Positions 20,935-29,944 of a DNA stretch of 64,000 bases are shown in pieces. This DNA comes from Conexibacter woesei Iso977N (GTDB lineage: Bacteria > Actinomycetota > Thermoleophilia > Solirubrobacterales > Solirubrobacteraceae). The notes beneath the pieces were generated by a model. That model searched no databases, was not told the origin of the DNA, and was given only the letters and a program-made list of their open reading frames with translations. Position 1 is the stretch's first letter, and each line of letters begins with the position of its first letter. A program made the position numbers and the translations under genes. Where the stretch lies: NCBI RefSeq assembly GCF_000424625.1, contig NZ_AUKG01000002.1, positions 1,550,001 through 1,614,000 on the forward strand, written 5' to 3'.

Positions 20935-21708
20935 ATGCACCGCGCTCGCCTCCCGCTCCTGACCCTCGCCGCCACGCTCGCCGTCGCGTCGCCCGCCGCC
21001 GCAGAGAGGGCGGCGAAGTTCTCCGTGTCCTTCGACGGCACCGCGCACACGACCTGGAACCTGCCCGCCTACCAGCAGGCCCAGGACTGCTACCGGACCT
21101 CGATGGTCGACGGCCACGGGGAGGAGACCTGGCACGTCGCCTCGACCGGCCAGAACAAGGTGCTGGCCTTCTCCAACGGCGTCGCGACCCAGTTCCAGTA
21201 CGGCAGCTGGAAGCTCAACGACCCGCACGACACCGGCGGCCTGAAGGCCAAGGGCCAGGTCACGCGCAGCCGCACGATGAACACCAACTACACCGCCGGT
21301 ACGTGCGGCGTGACGATGAAGCCGATGGGCGCCGACGACCCGCCGCCCATCCCGCCCGACTGCGGGACGCTGCTGGTCGACTACGACGTGCAGCTCGGCT
21401 GGAGCGGCAGCCGCGCGGTCGAGCTGACCCCGGACGTCACGACCGCCGAGCACGGCGTGCGCGAGAAGGTGAGCTTCGCGCAGTGCTCGCTGATCACGCC
21501 GCGTCAGACGACCGAGGGCGCGTGGCCGGTGGCGACCGCGCGTCCCACCGCGCAGCGCAGGCCGATCGCGGGCTGGTTCGGCAGGCAGAGGACGATCGTC
21601 GCGCACGGCAGGAAGCAGTACGACGACCGCCAGACGTTCGGCGCCGGCGGCGTCTACACGACCACGACGACGATCGAGTGGAAGCTGACGTTCACCCGCG
21701 TGCGCTAG
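20935..21708 (+). CDS. Secreted protein of unknown function
   Basis: 257 residues with a signal peptide (1-23, ending SPAAA). The mature part is predicted to be all beta. It has three Cys-containing segments (QDCYRTS; GTCGVT and PDCGTLLVDY; AQCSLITP), consistent with two disulfides, and the C-terminus ends in an alternating Thr-rich strand (VYTTTTTIEWKLTF). I do not recognise the family. It stands alone and ends in a CTAG shared with the convergent LLM oxidoreductase. Confidence 0.72.
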   Translation: MHRARLPLLTLAATLAVASPAAAERAAKFSVSFDGTAHTTWNLPAYQQAQDCYRTSMVDGHGEETWHVASTGQNKVLAFSNGVATQFQYGSWKLNDPHDTGGLKAKGQVTRSRTMNTNYTAGTCGVTMKPMGADDPPPIPPDCGTLLVDYDVQLGWSGSRAVELTPDVTTAEHGVREKVSFAQCSLITPRQTTEGAWPVATARPTAQRRPIAGWFGRQRTIVAHGRKQYDDRQTFGAGGVYTTTTTIEWKLTFTRVR

Positions 21709-22550
21709 GCGCGCAGCGCGGGCACGAGCTCCTCGCCGATCCGGCGGACCGTGGCGAGATCGCGGTGCTCCAGGTGCTGGATGAAGACGCGCGATACCCC
21801 GGCGTTCTCATAGGCCTTGAGATGGTCGACGGTCGGCGCCATGTCCGGGCCGATCTCGACCGGGCCCATCATCGAGAACGGGATCGGCTCGCGGCCCGCC
21901 GCCGCGCACGCGGCGTCGATCCTCGCCTTGCGCTCGGCGGCCTCGTCGAGCGTCGGCATGACCGTGTTGTACTCGTCGGCCCAGCGGGCGGCCAGCCGCG
22001 CCGCGCGCGGGCCGGCGGCGCCGCCCATGATCAGCGGCGGGTGCGGGCGCTGGACCGGCTTGGGGTAGGACGACAACCCGCTCAGCTCGTAGTGCCTGCC
22101 CTTGAACGCGTAGTTGTCGTCCTCGCCCCAGTGGCCGTCGTGGATGATCTCCAGCTGCTCCTCGAGCACGTCCATCCGCTCGGCCATCGAGAGGAACGGG
22201 AAGCCGTACGCGGTGTGCTCGACCTCCGACCAGCCGGTCCCGAGGCCGAGCTCGATCCGGCCGCCGCTGATGTGGTCGGCGGTCGTCGCGAGCTTGCCGA
22301 CGATCGAGGGATGGCGGAACGAGGTCGGCGACACCATCGTGCCGAGCCGCAGCGTGGTCGTCGTCGCGGCCAGCGCGCAGATCGTGCCCCACGCGTCCAG
22401 CGCGCCGCGCTCGTTGTGGCCGGAGACCGACAGGTAGTGATCGGAGCGGAACAGCGCCTCGATCCCGACGGCCTCGCAGGTCTCGGCCAGCGCGACCCAG
22501 TCCTCCCAGGTCACGTCCTCCTGGCCCTCGATCATCAACGCGACGCGCAT
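21705..22550 (-). CDS. LLM-class F420-dependent oxidoreductase
   Basis: 281 residues with the luciferase-like monooxygenase TIM barrel. Typical blocks are ALFRSDHYLSV, LRLGTMVSPTSFRHP, GGRIELGLGTGWSEVEH and PPLIMGGAAGPRAARLAARWADEYN. These match the F420-binding branch, although FMN use cannot be excluded by eye. Substrate unknown. It begins 10 nt after the stop of the exported-protein operon (22561-29944) and may be its last gene. No clear Shine-Dalgarno sequence is seen. Confidence 0.85.
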   Translation of the reverse strand: MRVALMIEGQEDVTWEDWVALAETCEAVGIEALFRSDHYLSVSGHNERGALDAWGTICALAATTTTLRLGTMVSPTSFRHPSIVGKLATTADHISGGRIELGLGTGWSEVEHTAYGFPFLSMAERMDVLEEQLEIIHDGHWGEDDNYAFKGRHYELSGLSSYPKPVQRPHPPLIMGGAAGPRAARLAARWADEYNTVMPTLDEAAERKARIDAACAAAGREPIPFSMMGPVEIGPDMAPTVDHLKAYENAGVSRVFIQHLEHRDLATVRRIGEELVPALRA

Positions 22551-22560
22551 GAACGTGAGG

Positions 22561-23310
22561 CTACTTCAACGTGAAGGCCTTGCTCGCGCGCAGGACCGTC
22601 CTGCCGCCCTGCGTCAGCGCGGCGCGCGCGGTGAAGCGGCCCTTCGGCAGGCCCTTGGCGCTGCCGAGCGGCAGCTCGACGGTCGCGCCCGGCAGGACCT
22701 TGGTCGCCGCGACGCCGACGGTCCGCCCGCCGGAGGCGCCGGTCAGCCGGACGCTGCCGGACACCGGGTCGATCGTGTTGCCGATGTTGGTCACCGGGAG
22801 GACGATCCTGCCGCCGCGCACCCGGACGGCGCCCGCGCGCAGGTGCAGCCGCTTGCTCGCCGGGGTGAGACGCAGCGAGCCGATCAGCCGGTAGCCGGTG
22901 ACGACGCCGCTGCTCGACCGCCTGGTGGCGGCGGTCGGCAGCCCGACGACGTCGACCGCGCCGTACAGCGCGCCGCCGGCCGGCCGGCCCTTCAGCGTGA
23001 GGGTCACGCTCTTCCTCGCGCCGGCGGCGAGCGTGAACGAGCGCGCGGACACGCCGACCTTCCCGAGCAACGACTTCGCCCTGTCGGGCGCCACGGCACC
23101 CGAGCGGGCCTGCTTCCACGGCCGCGGCGTGACCGTGACCTTCAGCGCGACCGCCGACGAGTTGTCCACCGTGATGCTGCCGACCGTGCCGGGCTTGGCC
23201 GCGTGCTCGACGACGGCGGGGGTCAGCGCGAGGCCGCCGGCGCCCAGCGCGGACGGCACGACCGCCAGCGCGGCGACGGCGAGGGACGGGACGAGGATGC
23301 GGTTCAACAT
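22561..23310 (-). CDS. Secreted DUF916/WxL-partner-like protein
   Basis: 249 residues. A signal peptide (1-23, ALGAGG cleavage region) is followed by two Ig-like beta domains. The first has the LTPAVVEHAAKPGTVGSITV start, a conserved Pro-Trp (TPRPW) and a GGALYGAVDVVG block, resembling DUF916 of Firmicutes WxL-locus proteins. The second (about 155-249) resembles the following DUF3324-type domain. Unlike the Firmicutes proteins there is no C-terminal membrane anchor. A GTG at 23334 overlapping the previous stop is an alternative start. The DUF916 link is by eye only. Confidence 0.65.
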   Translation of the reverse strand: MLNRILVPSLAVAALAVVPSALGAGGLALTPAVVEHAAKPGTVGSITVDNSSAVALKVTVTPRPWKQARSGAVAPDRAKSLLGKVGVSARSFTLAAGARKSVTLTLKGRPAGGALYGAVDVVGLPTAATRRSSSGVVTGYRLIGSLRLTPASKRLHLRAGAVRVRGGRIVLPVTNIGNTIDPVSGSVRLTGASGGRTVGVAATKVLPGATVELPLGSAKGLPKGRFTARAALTQGGRTVLRASKAFTLK

Positions 23311-23330
23311 GAGGTGATTGCCTTGGTCGT

Positions 23331-23672
23331 TCACGGCGCGGTGGCCACGGTGATGAGGACGGTGGAAGGGCCGGACGCGTCGAGCACGATCGGCACGGGG
23401 GCGGCGGAGATCGCATCGGTCCAGGCGCGCAGCGGTGCGGTGAAGACCGTCGGCGCACCGGCCGCGCCGTCCCCGACGCTCAACGTCGCGCCCGGATCGG
23501 TCGCGGTGACCCGCGCGGTCAGCGCGAGCGGCCCGGTCTGGTCCAGCTCGAGCCCGAGGTACGACGGCACCGTGCCGCCGACGTCGGTGTCGCTCTGCGC
23601 GCGGGCGGCCGGGGCGGCGGCGGTCGCGAGCGCGACCGCCGCCAGCAGCAGCGCGCGGCGCGTGCGCCACAT
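23331..23672 (-). CDS. Small secreted WxL-like beta-domain protein
   Basis: 113 residues: a signal peptide (1-25, ending ARAQ) and one beta domain. It begins DVGGTVPSYLGLELD and ends with a terminal hydrophobic strand (STVLITVATAP). The opening matches the last domain of the large beta-helix protein two genes upstream (DVTGTVPSTLALNVS). The start overlaps the previous stop (TGATG at 23672-23674) and its own stop overlaps a GTG of the next gene. It is the small partner in the exported operon. Confidence 0.68.
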   Translation of the reverse strand: MWRTRRALLLAAVALATAAAPAARAQSDTDVGGTVPSYLGLELDQTGPLALTARVTATDPGATLSVGDGAAGAPTVFTAPLRAWTDAISAAPVPIVLDASGPSTVLITVATAP

Positions 23673-24988
23673 CAGCGCGCCGCCTTCCTGACGAGCAGCT
23701 TGATCGAGACGCGCGCGGTGGTGCCGTCGGTTCCGCGGTAGCGGAAGGTCAGCATGCGGGACGAGGGGTAGGCGAGGATCACGGAGATGGTCCCTCCTGG
23801 ACCGGTGGCGGTGCCGCCCTTGAGCAGCGAGTGGGTGCCGACCTTGTTGATGATGTCGATCAAGAGCCCTGCCTTGGCCGGCTTGCGCTTCCTGTTGACC
23901 AGGCAGGTCAGGGTCCCGCCGAAGCGGTAGCGGCCGTTGCGGCGCAGGACGGCGGTGCCGCGGCTGACGCGGAGCGGCCTCTGGCGCAGGAACATCGACA
24001 GCTCGGGCCTCGCGCACGCCGCGGCGCCGGCGCCGCCGGTGCCGCTGCCGCTGCCGCCGCCGTCGCCGGTCGACGAGCCGGGGCCGCCTGCGCCCGACAC
24101 CGGGCTGCCGTTGCCGATCGCGAGCGTCGCGGTGTTCGACGTCAGCACCGGCGCGTTGGCGACCACGACGTCCTGGTCGAGGATCGTCGTCGCCTGCCCG
24201 GCGGCGTCGGTGACGACGACCGCCAGCCGGTGCGGGCCGTCCGGGACCGTCGTCGTGTCGACGCTCAGCGCCGCGTCCGGGACCGTCACCGGGCAGGCGG
24301 CGGTCACCGGCAGGTCGACGTGGGCGTCGCCCGGCGAGAGGTCCGCGCACGACGCGCCGCCGAGGTCGGTGCTCGCGACCTCCGCGCCGTCCAGCAGCGC
24401 GGTCGCCCGCGCCAGCCCGAGCCCGGCGTCGGTCGCCCGGACCGACAACGACAACTTGCCCGCCGCCGGCGAGACGACGCCACCGACCGCACCGCGTGGT
24501 GCCGCGTCGTCGACGACGTCGACCTGGACCGACGACACGTCGATCCCGGGCACGGAGCTCGCCGCGCACCGGGCATCCGGCGCCGCTTCGCAGCGCACGC
24601 CGAACGCCGCGCCGCCGTCCTCCAGCGTCGTGCCGCCGAAGTCGCCGAACACGCTGCGCGCCAGCCGCACCCCGCTCACCGCCACGCCCGCCGGCACGTC
24701 CAGGCGCCAGCGCGCGAACGACCCGCCGCTCGGGTCCGGGCGGGTGAAGGTCGCCCGGACGCCGCCGTCGCCGGGACCGGCGCAGCCGGCGCCGACCTGG
24801 CCGATGACGCCGTCGCCGCCGGTCGACGCGACCAGCGGCGGGACGCCGAGCGCCTGCCCGGCCGGGCCGTGGCAGGCCCACAGCGTCACGCTCGCCGCCG
24901 GGGCGGAAGTGGGCGCCGCCGCGGCCCAGGCCAGGGCCGCGGCGGTCGTCAGCGGTAGGGCGGCGGTCCGTCGCCGCGTGACCATCAT
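23672..24988 (-). CDS. Secreted Ig-like domain protein
   Basis: 438 residues. The signal peptide spans 1-32. An N-terminal domain with three Cys pairs (WACHGP, GAGCAGP, VRCEAA) is followed by a bacterial Ig-like domain (about 180-290: LSLSVRATDAGLG, PDGPHRLAVVVTDAAGQ), a Gly/Ser-rich linker (about 305-330) and a C-terminal beta domain (CARPELSMFL to VRKAAR). There are no catalytic motifs. It is third in the minus-strand exported operon, 10 nt after the beta-helix gene. It is probably a structural or adhesive surface protein. Confidence 0.72.
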   Translation of the reverse strand: MMVTRRRTAALPLTTAAALAWAAAAPTSAPAASVTLWACHGPAGQALGVPPLVASTGGDGVIGQVGAGCAGPGDGGVRATFTRPDPSGGSFARWRLDVPAGVAVSGVRLARSVFGDFGGTTLEDGGAAFGVRCEAAPDARCAASSVPGIDVSSVQVDVVDDAAPRGAVGGVVSPAAGKLSLSVRATDAGLGLARATALLDGAEVASTDLGGASCADLSPGDAHVDLPVTAACPVTVPDAALSVDTTTVPDGPHRLAVVVTDAAGQATTILDQDVVVANAPVLTSNTATLAIGNGSPVSGAGGPGSSTGDGGGSGSGTGGAGAAACARPELSMFLRQRPLRVSRGTAVLRRNGRYRFGGTLTCLVNRKRKPAKAGLLIDIINKVGTHSLLKGGTATGPGGTISVILAYPSSRMLTFRYRGTDGTTARVSIKLLVRKAAR

Positions 24989-24998
24989 CCGGTCAGGC

Positions 24999-27356
24999 CT
25001 ACGGAGCGGTCGTCGACAGCGTGAGCACGACCGTCTTGTTGTAGGTGCCGGTGCGCAGGGCCTCCGTGGCCCCGATCGACTGCTTGAACGCGATCCCGAC
25101 CGGCTCGTTGGCCACCGGGCCGCCGTAGGTCGCCAGCGTCAGCGGGCTCGCCGCCGACCCGATCGGCGCGAACGTTCCCGCACCCGCCTTGGCCTGCAGC
25201 GGCGACGCGAGCGAGAACACGCCGTTGACCAGGTGGCCGGTGGCCGTGGCGCTCGGGTCCTGGATCGTCAGCGCCGCGTTGCCGCCGCTGGACGTCACGC
25301 CGACCGTCAGCGCCGTCGTGTAGTCCATCGCCCTGCCCGGGACGAACGTCCCGAGGCTCGGCGCCGGACCGGACACGTTCAGCGCCAGCGTGCTCGGCAC
25401 CGTGCCGGTCACGTCGCTCTGCGCGGTCACGTTGAACACGTGGCCGACGGCGGTGATCGGCACCACGATCGGGCTCGTCGCGCCCGGTGCGATGTAGCCG
25501 ATCGCCAGCGCCGCGGCCTGCGGGCCCTCGGCGGTCGGCGCGTACCTCACCGTGATCGTGCAGGACTCGCCGATCGCCAGCGTCTGGCCGCCGGCACAGG
25601 CGCCGTCACCGGCCAGCCTGCTGAACGTCGTGTCGCCGCTGAGCGCGACGGTCGCGATCCCGACCGGGTTCTGGCCGGTGTTCTTGAAGGTGAACACCTT
25701 GGTCGCGTCCTGGCCGACGAGCACCGTGCCCGCGTTCCAGGCGTCCGGCGTGATCGTCGCCGCGGCGTACCCGGCCGGGACCGGGACCGTCACGTGCAGC
25801 AGCGCCGTCGTGACCTGGCCGGCCGAGTCGGTGATCACCGCGGTCAGCGTATGGGTCGCGCCGAGGTCGGCGTAGCCCGGCGTCCACGAGAACTCGTACG
25901 GCGCCCTGGCGTCCGTGGCAAGGACATTGCCATCGACCTTCAGGGCGACCGACGCGATCCCGAAGTCGTCGTGGGCGACGACGGTCGGCGTGATCGCCTG
26001 GCCGACGGCGACCGACGCGCCCTCGGCCGGGTCGGCGATCGAGCCCGTCGGCGCGGCGTCGGGCGTGACGGCCGGGACCGTCAGCGCCGTGGGCGCGGTC
26101 GTGCGGGCGGCGGCGCCGATCTCGACCGACGGCGCGGCCGCCGCGTCGTTGCCGGAGATGCCGTCGCAGCCGCCCTGCGACGGGGCGCCGAGGACCGGGC
26201 CGGCCGCGCAGCCGTACCAGTTCTCCGCCGCCGCGCTGCTGCCGGTGGCCAGCGCCGGGGCGCCGAGCCGGACCGCGCTGTTGGCGATGTCGGCGTTGAA
26301 CAGCCCGTAGCCGTTGCCGCTGAGCACGTTCCCGGTGGCGCTGAACGCCCGCACCGCCGGGTTCGACGGGTCGGCGCCGGTCGTCGCGTCGGTCAGGAGC
26401 AAGCCCACCGACCTGCGCGGGTCGGGCGAGTACATGTTGTTGACGATCTCGCTGCCGCTGACCGCGCCGCGGGCACCCGCGTGGTACTGCACGCCGGTCT
26501 GCGCGACGAGGTCGCTCGGCCCGCCGCCCGCGATTCGCGAGCCGGTGATCGTCCCGTACTCGACGATCCCGGAGCGCGCCTGCGTGGTCGCGTTGCCGTC
26601 GGTGCCGCGGCTGTCGTCGAACAGCACGCCGCCCTCCTGGTACCCGGTCACCAGCGAGTTGTTGATGGTGACCTCACGGCGGACCGTCGCCTCCGACGCG
26701 CCCTGCAGCGAGTTGGCCATCACGACACCCCAGCCGTGCGGCCGGGCGGCGAGCTCGGTCGCGTCGGCCGCGTGGTAGAGCGGCCCGACGACCGAGTTGG
26801 TGATCCGGCCCGACGTGTTGAAGAACGCGATCCCGGCCTCCGCGTAGACGTCGGGCGACCGGACGGTCACGCCCGAGATGTCCACGAAGTTCTCGGTCAT
26901 GTCCGAGGACCCCAGGGACTGGCGGTTGATCTGGATCACCGCGCCGCCGCCGTCGCGCAGGTACGGCGCGGTGCCCGCCAGCGAGCTGCCGGCCTCGCCC
27001 GCCGCCTCGATGAACACCTTGTCGGCGCCCGCACCCTTGATCGTCAGCGGCTTCGTGATCAGGAACCCGTTCCTGGAACCCGACTGCGCCGGGCTGTTGG
27101 TCGAGGTCGGCGCGTTGGAGACCTCGCGGTAGGTGCCCGGGCAGACGATGATCGTGTCCCACGGCGCGGCCTGGTTGATGGCCGCCTGCAGCGACGTGAA
27201 CCCGGCGCTGGGGCAGTCGGCCTTGTCGTCGTCGACCGTCAGGGTCGACGCCGAGGCGAAGGCCGGGGCCGCGACCGCGAGCAGAACGCTCGCGGTCAGG
27301 GCCAGGAGGATGCGGCGGAGCAGCATGATGTTCTTGTCGTCCTTGGTCGTCGTCAT
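24999..27356 (-). CDS. Secreted right-handed beta-helix protein with Ig, ASPM/Hydin-like and WxL-like domains
   Basis: 785 residues from ATG 27356; GTG 27368 (overlapping the upstream stop) and ATG 27326 are alternatives. A signal peptide ends near residue 36. It is followed by a parallel beta-helix (about 40-400, with pectate-lyase-like repeats such as TNSVVGPLYH and ATGNVLSGNGYGLFN), a bacterial Ig domain (435-525) and an ASPM/SPD-2/Hydin or choice-of-anchor domain (530-640). The tail is a WxL-like beta domain (642-785) ending YNKTVVLTLSTTAP. The helix suggests glycan binding or cleavage, but I see no catalytic residues. Confidence 0.78.
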   Translation of the reverse strand: MTTTKDDKNIMLLRRILLALTASVLLAVAAPAFASASTLTVDDDKADCPSAGFTSLQAAINQAAPWDTIIVCPGTYREVSNAPTSTNSPAQSGSRNGFLITKPLTIKGAGADKVFIEAAGEAGSSLAGTAPYLRDGGGAVIQINRQSLGSSDMTENFVDISGVTVRSPDVYAEAGIAFFNTSGRITNSVVGPLYHAADATELAARPHGWGVVMANSLQGASEATVRREVTINNSLVTGYQEGGVLFDDSRGTDGNATTQARSGIVEYGTITGSRIAGGGPSDLVAQTGVQYHAGARGAVSGSEIVNNMYSPDPRRSVGLLLTDATTGADPSNPAVRAFSATGNVLSGNGYGLFNADIANSAVRLGAPALATGSSAAAENWYGCAAGPVLGAPSQGGCDGISGNDAAAAPSVEIGAAARTTAPTALTVPAVTPDAAPTGSIADPAEGASVAVGQAITPTVVAHDDFGIASVALKVDGNVLATDARAPYEFSWTPGYADLGATHTLTAVITDSAGQVTTALLHVTVPVPAGYAAATITPDAWNAGTVLVGQDATKVFTFKNTGQNPVGIATVALSGDTTFSRLAGDGACAGGQTLAIGESCTITVRYAPTAEGPQAAALAIGYIAPGATSPIVVPITAVGHVFNVTAQSDVTGTVPSTLALNVSGPAPSLGTFVPGRAMDYTTALTVGVTSSGGNAALTIQDPSATATGHLVNGVFSLASPLQAKAGAGTFAPIGSAASPLTLATYGGPVANEPVGIAFKQSIGATEALRTGTYNKTVVLTLSTTAP

Positions 27357-27364
27357 GTCGTCCG

Positions 27365-29944
27365 TCACGCGATCGTGATCGTCTTGGCCTTGCCGAGCAC
27401 GTGGCGCCCGGCCGAGTCGACCACCCGCACGGCGACGCGGTAGTGGCCCTTGGGCATCGCCCGCTTGAGGCGGACCGACCACTTGGCGGTGCCGTGGACG
27501 GCGAGGCCGACCGGGGCCGAGCAGGGCATCGTGCGCCCGAGCGTGCCGTTGGCGCGCAGGAACTTGCACCTGCTGGCGCTCGCCACGTGGCGGACGACCA
27601 GCTCCACCGTCTTGACCTTCGTCGGCGTGCAGGCCGTGGCCGTGCCCGTCAACGTGTAGGTCTTGCCCCTGGTGGCGCCGAGCGAGGCGATCGCCGCGCT
27701 GGGTGTGCAGCCCGCGGCTGGGGTGCTCTTGGCGGTCGCGGTCGTTGTTGTCGTCGTCGCGCCGGCGGCGGTCCCGCCGACCCAGATGACGTCCGGCTCG
27801 CTGCCGGCGGCCAGGCGCGGGCTGTCCGCGATCTCCTGGTCGCCCTTGGCGAACGCGGCCGCGTCGGTCAGCGCGCTCGGGCCGGTCACGGCCTCCTGGA
27901 AGCGCACGTCGCTGAGCTGGATCGAGCCGCTCTGCGGCTTGCCGAGCTCCCCGAACCGCAGCTCGAGCTTGGCGATGTGCCTGAGGTCGACGCCCTGGGC
28001 GGCGAAGTCGCCGAGCGGGACGCGGATGTCGTTGAGCGTCACGTGCACGCGGGCGCCGGTGTTGCCGACGGTCTGGTGCAGCGCCGTGCCGTAGCGCGGC
28101 GACGCGGCCGACACGGTGCCCTCGACGCCGTTGGCGTCCTTGACGGCGATCGTGAAGTCCTGCGTCGTGGCCGCCGGGTTCCAGAGGCCGGTCAGGCCGC
28201 GGGACGGGTTGCGCGGGTCGAAGAAGTTGACCGCCGTGGCCAACACCAGTGCCTTGTAGGAGGACACGTCCGAGGACGCGGCCGGGATCCGGGTGGCGAG
28301 CGTCGCGGGCGTGCCCGTTGCGGCGAGCGGGTTGTCCCACGCCAGCGCGAGCTGGAGGCCGTAGGAGTGGTTGACGGGCGCGTTCTCACGCGTGCCGTTC
28401 TGGCCGCCGATCGCCGTGGCGGGCGGCAGCGGGCAGCCCTTGGTCGCCGTCGGCAGGCCGGTCTCGCCGGCCGTGCTCGTCTGGAACTGCGTCGGCTCCG
28501 GGTTGCACCAGTCGTAGCCGCCGGGCGTCGTCGCCGGGATCGGGTTGATCCCGCCGGGCGAGGTGTAGGGGTTGCTGAAGCCCGAGCCGGTCAGCGCGGT
28601 GCCGACCGCGCTGGTGCCGAGCGGGTCGTCCGGTTCCGGGCGGATCACGTCGCGGCGCTCGGCCGGCGGCGCGAAGTAGCTGGTCTGCAGGCGGTCGAAG
28701 CAGCTGATCTTCGTCGCCGAGACCGTCTGGCTCGGGCAGGCGCTGGCCGGCAGCTGTGGCGTGACGCCGTCCTGGCTGAGCTCGCCCGTCATGTAGGGGT
28801 CGTACGCGGTGTCGCCGCCGACGTAGCGCTTGAAGAAGGACGACATCATCGCGAGGCCGACCTTCTCCTGGTCGCCCATCAGCGTCGGGTCGCCGGAGCC
28901 GTAGGTTCCGGACGCGCCCGAGCGCGTGTAGGTGCCGCCCGAGAGGCGGATGTTGTCCGGGTTGGTGGTCGCGTTGGTCGAGCACGCAGGGTCGCTGACC
29001 GTGGAGTCGTCGCCATCGGCGAACCACGTGGTGTTGAACCAGTTGTGGTTGGCGCCGTGCAGCATGACCTGGATCCGCGGGAACGGGTCTTCGGGCATGA
29101 CGTACTGGCTGCGCTCGTAGAAGCGGCTGCCCTGGAGGTTGGAGACGTCGCCGTCGCAGTAGCCGATCATCGTCATGTAGGCCGTGCCGTACGGCGCCTT
29201 GCGCTCGTAGTCGACGGGCGCCAGCGAGATCACGCCGCGGATGTCGTAGCGGCGGCCGGGCGCGGGGCGCGTGCGGTTGAAGTCCAGGAACGACGCGACC
29301 GCGTCGCCGCCGCGCGAGTGGCCCATCAGGCCGATGCGGTGGAAGTCCAGGCGGCCGACGAGCTGAGACCCGATGTTATGGGTGTCGTCGTCGGCGATCG
29401 CCGACTGGTTGGCGGCGTAGAGCGCGTCGAGACCCGCAGCGATGATCAACCGCCGCTGGTGCATGCCCTTGGCGGTGTTGTCCTGGTAGAACATCAACTG
29501 GTCCTGGTCGATCGAGTAGACCGTGTAGCCCCAGGTCGCGAGGTTCTCGCCGAGGTAGGCGTAGCCGCGGTCGTTGCGCTCGAAGATCGAGCAGTTCGGC
29601 GCCGCGCCGGCGTTACAGGACGCGTGGTTGCCGTGGACGAGGATGATGACCGGCGAGTCCCTGGTCTTCTCGGCCGGGTAGTAGAGCGAGCCGCGCAGCG
29701 GGACGGTCGCGGCGTTGGCCGCGGCGGGCGGCGTGCCGGTGCCGACGGCGCCGCCCGTGGCGCTCGGCTCCTGCAGGTCGACGGTGCCGAGCTTGACCGG
29801 GTCGACGGTCGTCGGCGTGTACGGCCCGCGGGCGAGCGGGTCCGGAAGCGAGGTCGCCGCTTGGGCGGCGGGGATCGCGCCCAGCATCAGGGCAGCGACG
29901 AGCAGCAGGCAGCGGAACGCCCGCAGGGGGAACGCGTGAGGCAC
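27365..29944 (-). CDS. Large secreted alpha/beta hydrolase with C-terminal beta domains
   Basis: 859 residues. The signal peptide spans 1-29. The hydrolase core (about 80-400) has the oxyanion segment LVHGNHASC and the nucleophile elbow GHSRGG (S210). A long Cys-containing insert and a carbohydrate-binding-like beta region (about 540-720) follow. A Thr-rich linker and a basic Ig-like C-terminal domain with two Cys (about 750-859) come last. It resembles secreted esterases or lipases; the substrate is unknown. GTG start with GGAG 4 nt upstream. It is the first gene of the exported operon. Confidence 0.82.
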   Translation of the reverse strand: MPHAFPLRAFRCLLLVAALMLGAIPAAQAATSLPDPLARGPYTPTTVDPVKLGTVDLQEPSATGGAVGTGTPPAAANAATVPLRGSLYYPAEKTRDSPVIILVHGNHASCNAGAAPNCSIFERNDRGYAYLGENLATWGYTVYSIDQDQLMFYQDNTAKGMHQRRLIIAAGLDALYAANQSAIADDDTHNIGSQLVGRLDFHRIGLMGHSRGGDAVASFLDFNRTRPAPGRRYDIRGVISLAPVDYERKAPYGTAYMTMIGYCDGDVSNLQGSRFYERSQYVMPEDPFPRIQVMLHGANHNWFNTTWFADGDDSTVSDPACSTNATTNPDNIRLSGGTYTRSGASGTYGSGDPTLMGDQEKVGLAMMSSFFKRYVGGDTAYDPYMTGELSQDGVTPQLPASACPSQTVSATKISCFDRLQTSYFAPPAERRDVIRPEPDDPLGTSAVGTALTGSGFSNPYTSPGGINPIPATTPGGYDWCNPEPTQFQTSTAGETGLPTATKGCPLPPATAIGGQNGTRENAPVNHSYGLQLALAWDNPLAATGTPATLATRIPAASSDVSSYKALVLATAVNFFDPRNPSRGLTGLWNPAATTQDFTIAVKDANGVEGTVSAASPRYGTALHQTVGNTGARVHVTLNDIRVPLGDFAAQGVDLRHIAKLELRFGELGKPQSGSIQLSDVRFQEAVTGPSALTDAAAFAKGDQEIADSPRLAAGSEPDVIWVGGTAAGATTTTTTATAKSTPAAGCTPSAAIASLGATRGKTYTLTGTATACTPTKVKTVELVVRHVASASRCKFLRANGTLGRTMPCSAPVGLAVHGTAKWSVRLKRAMPKGHYRVAVRVVDSAGRHVLGKAKTITIA

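Follow-up and report, generated by a model that had tools for sequence, protein, structure and literature searches.

A diverged WxLIP homologue and a predicted pilin-like C-terminal domain encoded together in Conexibacter woesei Iso977N

A cluster of five genes for exported proteins (positions 22561–29944, minus strand) was analysed in a 64,000-nucleotide (nt) stretch of the genome of Conexibacter woesei Iso977N (the window; whole genome 5.7 Mb). Its last gene encodes a protein, D, which by sequence profiles and a structural model is a diverged homologue of WxLIP (DUF916 plus DUF3324), predicted to be PapD-like in fold and soluble. Its second gene encodes a beta-helix protein that ends with a domain, W, which by the same kinds of evidence is a predicted pilin-like C-terminal domain and not Pfam WxL. 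An immunoglobulin-like (Ig-like) protein, I, and a shortened small W protein, w, are encoded between these two; the first gene encodes a hydrolase. A display of WxL type is proposed, with a probability of roughly 0.6, in which D completes or clamps the pilin-like C-terminal docking domain and which works without W-x-L motifs, a membrane helix or an usher.

Protein D

Homology: Homologues of D were found in 13 genomes in a search of 101 relatives and were linked by iterated profiles to a second branch that is encoded beside genuine Pfam WxL genes and that matches Pfam WxLIP_PGBD (DUF916, E 3.8e-11) and WxLIP_HBD (DUF3324, E 3.6e-6). Branch A (18 sequences, D of the window included) was aligned with this Pfam-matching branch by hhalign (98.1%, E 7.3e-14) over 220 columns that cover both domains; the WxL profile, used as control, gave 1.3%. 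With a profile made from both branches (A1), EfmWxLIP1 was found among the PDB sequences (E 4.5e-10, nearly full length), nothing else being below E 0.8.

Predicted fold: The AlphaFold model of D (predicted local distance difference test, pLDDT, 94) had as best PDB matches the Enterococcus faecium WxLIP structures 9i1y (Z 16.4) and 9i25 (Z 16.0); next came chaperones of chaperone-usher systems: CfaA (Z 14.3), FimC (Z 13.8) and Caf1M (Z ~14). The two-domain fold is shared with EfmWxLIP1 (9i1y, 9i25) over the full length; the difference lies in the sequence (about 15% identity) and in the transmembrane helix, which D does not have. A first-pass annotation of the window, made from its letters alone, had called the last gene DUF916-like, and the hhalign and fold matches bear this out; the comparison with DUF916 and DUF3324 that it had proposed was positive by way of the branch profile.

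C-terminus: In the tree of D proteins, branches A, B and C were separate. A hydrophobic C-terminal helix was present on the D proteins of branches B and C; a C-terminal membrane helix was found in 0/18 of branch A, in all 18 of which the chain stops at most 6 residues past the second domain. The lack of a membrane anchor, remarked on in the first-pass annotation, was thus seen again. A paralogue cluster of the same genome (L024) encodes an additional DUF916-like protein, D' (L024:7033-8016, 327 aa), which does have a membrane helix at its C-terminus; it is possible that D' anchors the soluble D proteins.

W domain

Sequence: The W family was defined from the C-terminal 160 residues of the beta-helix protein, which run to its very end (...TLSTTAP); 17 members were obtained from the first loci. 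No Pfam or NCBIfam family was matched by W or w, no match to PF13731 (Pfam WxL) was found in W of the window, in the 17 members or in the same genome, and the W profile had no match among PDB sequences. Two W-x-L motifs were present in 0/33 W domains and, under the relaxed motif Wx[LIVF], in 20/22 true WxL domains. The WxL-like last domain that had been assigned to the beta-helix protein, and with it the naming of the end domain as WxL, could not be retained: there is no Pfam WxL match, both Trp motifs are missing, and the profile similarity to true WxL is 8–23%.

Predicted fold: The AlphaFold model of W (pLDDT 87; residues 1–30 of low confidence, as in the N-terminal extension of pilins) was matched best by self-complemented FimA (Z 10.3 over 144 residues), further matches being the donor-strand pilins CsuA/B and CfaE; the WxL chain of 9i25 was absent among the fold matches listed. 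The cryo-electron microscopy filament subunit TLP-1a (PDB 9ikj) was matched at Z 8.1 with 17% identity, which is above the identity to FimA. Among the literature searched, no publication deals with W, TLP-1a or WxL of Solirubrobacter.

C-branch relatives: A branch related to W (L038, L040, L143, L010) keeps W-T-L (SWTL) and adjoins D proteins with a membrane helix; it matches W by profile-profile comparison (98.6%, E 5.5e-16) and is a possible intermediate between W and WxL.

Distribution and cargo of W

Co-occurrence: W was found in 11/101 relatives, all 11 of which have D (hypergeometric p 1.4e-7 by genome, 6e-5 by genus). Since these values ignore kinship beyond genus and the profiles were built from the same loci, co-occurrence was used as supporting evidence only. 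Three genera (g1, g8, g10) contain members with both W and branch-A D and members with neither; one genome only holds both W and true WxL. Across 396 sampled genomes of the phylum, W was confined to the family of Solirubrobacter, to which the window genome also belongs.

Expansion: Two Solirubrobacter genomes gave 108 matches (G017) and 146 matches, about 145 domains (G051), the latter number lying near the upper limit of what was scored. Twenty W proteins of G017 were sampled; 20/20 end exactly with W and ~18/20 have a clear signal peptide by hydropathy. Most W domains close frames of 500–2700 aa, and the cargo domains comprise subtilase (S8), M14 and M6 peptidases, alkaline and purple acid phosphatases, GH43, GSDH/ThuA, CBM and PKD. 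In these two genomes W stands on more than 100 proteins each, mostly enzymes among those sampled. This general W domain, which the first-pass annotation did not point out, is a stronger finding than the DUF916-type cluster. The window genome, besides the beta-helix protein, has W on a metallophosphoesterase (in L024) and on an M1-family metallopeptidase (L141:7493-10771), which also has Ig-like repeats and bears W at its C-terminus.

Gene cluster

Features of positions 22561–29944, in the order of the genes:
27365..29944, minus: secreted alpha/beta-hydrolase, 859 aa, GTG start, with a C-terminal Ig-like domain
24999..27368, minus: large W protein (beta-helix protein), start at 27326 (ATG) or 27368 (GTG)
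25002..25481, minus: W domain of the beta-helix protein, 160 aa, predicted pilin-like fold, at the C-terminal end
23672..24988, minus: I protein (P0004), 438 aa, secreted, Ig-like
23331..23672, minus: mini W protein (w), 113 aa, shortened small W domain
22561..23310, minus: D, diverged WxLIP homologue (DUF916 PGBD plus DUF3324 HBD), signal peptide, no C-terminal membrane helix

Layout: The hydrolase and beta-helix genes are separated by 38 nt (ATG start) or overlap by 4 nt (GTGA, with the hydrolase stop; GTG start); the distance from the beta-helix gene to I is 10 nt, I and w overlap by 1 nt, and w and D are 20 nt apart. Each of the five open reading frames (ORFs) has an N-terminal hydrophobic, signal-peptide-like segment, so that five exported, tightly packed ORFs are present in the order first described.

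Conservation: The arrangement W-I-w-D, or a slight variant, was found in the window, in the paralogue cluster L024 and in L025, L031, L034 and L035; I-D-w-D was found in three Solirubrobacter loci (L027, L030, L036). Solirubrobacter also has solo D genes (L026, L028, L029, L032, L033, L037) outside such clusters. The I protein has a Cys-containing N-terminal region and a C-terminal Ig-like region, and its strong full-length relatives were confined to genomes with branch-A D. Protein w is matched by the W profile at E 1.2e-9 when 11 sequences are searched and at E 7.6e-4 genome-wide. A small and a large protein with a common end domain are therefore encoded beside a WxLIP homologue, the domain being W rather than WxL. 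The likeness to a WxL locus holds for this composition, which is kept in relatives, and fails for the end domain; a DUF916-type surface cluster does exist in this actinobacterium.

Hydrolase and beta-helix pair: The five genes are two joined modules, the hydrolase with the beta-helix protein and I with w and D. Orthologues of the hydrolase and the beta-helix protein adjoin each other head-to-head (divergent) in 11/11 other loci examined; in the window alone the two genes point the same way, and I-w-D comes after them. The conserved gene order that had been expected of relatives was accordingly seen for the W/I/w/D grouping and not for five genes with the hydrolase, which belongs to a separate, widely conserved pair. 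No hydrolase orthologue was found near D in the relatives compared, which first suggested an unrelated passenger; this was rejected because the beta-helix protein adjoins the hydrolase in all 11 other loci.

Exchange of W: The beta-helix protein consists of a right-handed beta-helix, a Big_7 Ig domain, a DUF1573/choice-of-anchor-D-like Ig domain and the C-terminal W. W closes the protein of the window and its orthologues from three Solirubrobacter, whereas the remaining eight orthologues have another domain at the C-terminus; W is therefore exchangeable. In the orthologues of L133–L140 a different C-terminal beta domain takes the place of W and may be a further sorting tag used in this order.

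Proposed mechanism and alternatives

Mechanism: D and the W proteins would be exported by their signal peptides. D would then bind W domains, most likely by beta-strand complementation, and would keep W folded, dock W proteins in the wall, or both; W would be an incomplete-Ig, pilin-like domain that serves as a swappable C-terminal docking tag. Proteins w and I, as module-specific partners, would probably serve as a common base for the complex. In the window the beta-helix protein would be displayed in this way, and perhaps the hydrolase through it; elsewhere in the genome the tag would display the phosphoesterase and the M1 peptidase. Binding of D to W, strand donation, wall attachment and the parts played by I and w are what we infer here. 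Insertion of a DUF916 strand into WxL has been proposed by Hassan et al. from AlphaFold models (PMC10599100), and the title of PDB 9i25 gives WxLIP bound to long WxL.

Known systems: With the WxL clusters of Lactobacillales and Bacillales (small WxL, large WxL, WxLIP; Csc clusters; PMC1534035, PMC9772566, PMC10599100) the module shares large and small proteins with a common C-terminal beta domain, a DUF916-DUF3324 protein whose fold matches WxLIP, export, and clustering. It differs in that W-x-L motifs and the transmembrane helix of D are lacking, that a conserved I protein is added, that W occurs on more than 100 proteins in some genomes, and that the host is an actinobacterium, whereas WxL hosts are mostly gut Firmicutes. 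In chaperone-usher pili (FimC-FimA, Caf1M-Caf1, CsuC-CsuA/B, CfaA-CfaB) the chaperone resembles D, WxLIP being closer, and the pilin resembles W; unlike these, the present system belongs to a monoderm phylum, has no usher (8 genomes) and uses W as the C-terminal domain of enzymes.

C-terminal sorting tags (the C-terminal domain of type IX secretion, PEP-CTERM, LPXTG) place one interchangeable C-terminal domain on many varied secreted proteins. W is likewise interchangeable on secreted proteins of varied function; it differs in its predicted pilin-like fold and in the WxLIP-like protein linked with it.

Points that weigh against the proposed display: D of the window alone had no significant Pfam match and no NCBIfam match, and the branch-A profile alone did not reach EfmWxLIP1 in PDB sequences (HMMER), nothing significant being found. 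D has neither a membrane helix nor a known wall-binding motif. The profile similarity of W to true WxL is not significant. Shared ancestry and profiles made from the same loci soften the co-occurrence of W and D, and three genomes (G006, G034, G049) have D, yet their beta-helix orthologue is without W. Protein w falls ~50 residues short of the small W proteins in Solirubrobacter (168 aa) and seems too small to hold a whole W domain.

Alternatives: D might act solely as a chaperone that helps secreted beta-rich proteins to fold outside the membrane, the W proteins being secreted freely and no surface complex being formed. The absence of a membrane helix from all 18 members of branch A and the solo D genes away from W clusters (L032, L033, L037) are consistent with this; the cluster composition, however, mirrors surface-bound WxL loci (PMC10599100, PMC9772566), and the paralogue cluster L024 also supplies the helix-bearing D', so that this explanation is considered unlikely. 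A donor-strand pilus, a fibre that W proteins of both sizes would build by exchanging their N-terminal strands, with D as assembly chaperone and without an usher, is considered quite unlikely. It would account for the pilin and TLP-1a (9ikj) matches of W, for the chaperone matches of D at Z ~14 and for the low-confidence N-terminal segment of the W model; but an usher (PF00577) was found in 0/8 genomes tested (E. coli control positive), which makes classical pilus assembly unlikely, and domains that mostly end frames of 500–2700 aa would be poor fibre subunits. A bona fide WxL locus with W as a divergent, still peptidoglycan-binding WxL domain is very unlikely, in spite of the SWTL motif and 98.6% match of the C-branch relatives, the colinear last strand ('GTYxKTLTFTLS' with 'GTYTSTWTFSLV') and the exact C-terminal stop common to W and WxL, given that no W domain of 33 has the dual W-x-L, that W of the window does not match PF13731 and that the W–WxL profile comparison gave 15–23%.

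Wider reading: The display proposed here might be an unrecognised general secretion-and-display system of Solirubrobacteraceae, in which as many as ~145 exported proteins of a genome bear the pilin-like C-terminal tag and a WxLIP/PapD-type partner recognises it by donor-strand complementation, chaperone-pilin logic being used as an usher-less sorting signal; this is put forward tentatively, at somewhat less than even odds. If the proposed display is right, WxL-type complexes would reach from gut Firmicutes to soil actinobacteria, a likely docking domain would be named for the 100 and more secreted proteins that carry it in a Solirubrobacter genome, WxLIP would be tied by fold to the chaperone-pilin world, and the role of DUF916 would become testable outside pathogens.

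Flanking gene and hydrolase

Flanking gene: An ORF for an LLM-type oxidoreductase (21705-22550, minus) lies on the same strand, begins 10 nt past the D stop codon and may be co-transcribed with D; with this sixth same-strand ORF the edge of the operon is uncertain. The same gene directly after D was not seen in the relatives mapped, and scans for promoters and terminators gave none.

Hydrolase: Residues 36–348 match PDB 9xg1 ('Protein-asparaginase', E 1.3e-31); Pfam gave weak PETase/Abhydrolase matches only. The nucleophile motif GHSRGG is at residue 208; by prediction from the sequence, the catalytic Asp is likely that of YCDGD (262) and the catalytic His that of GANHN (297).
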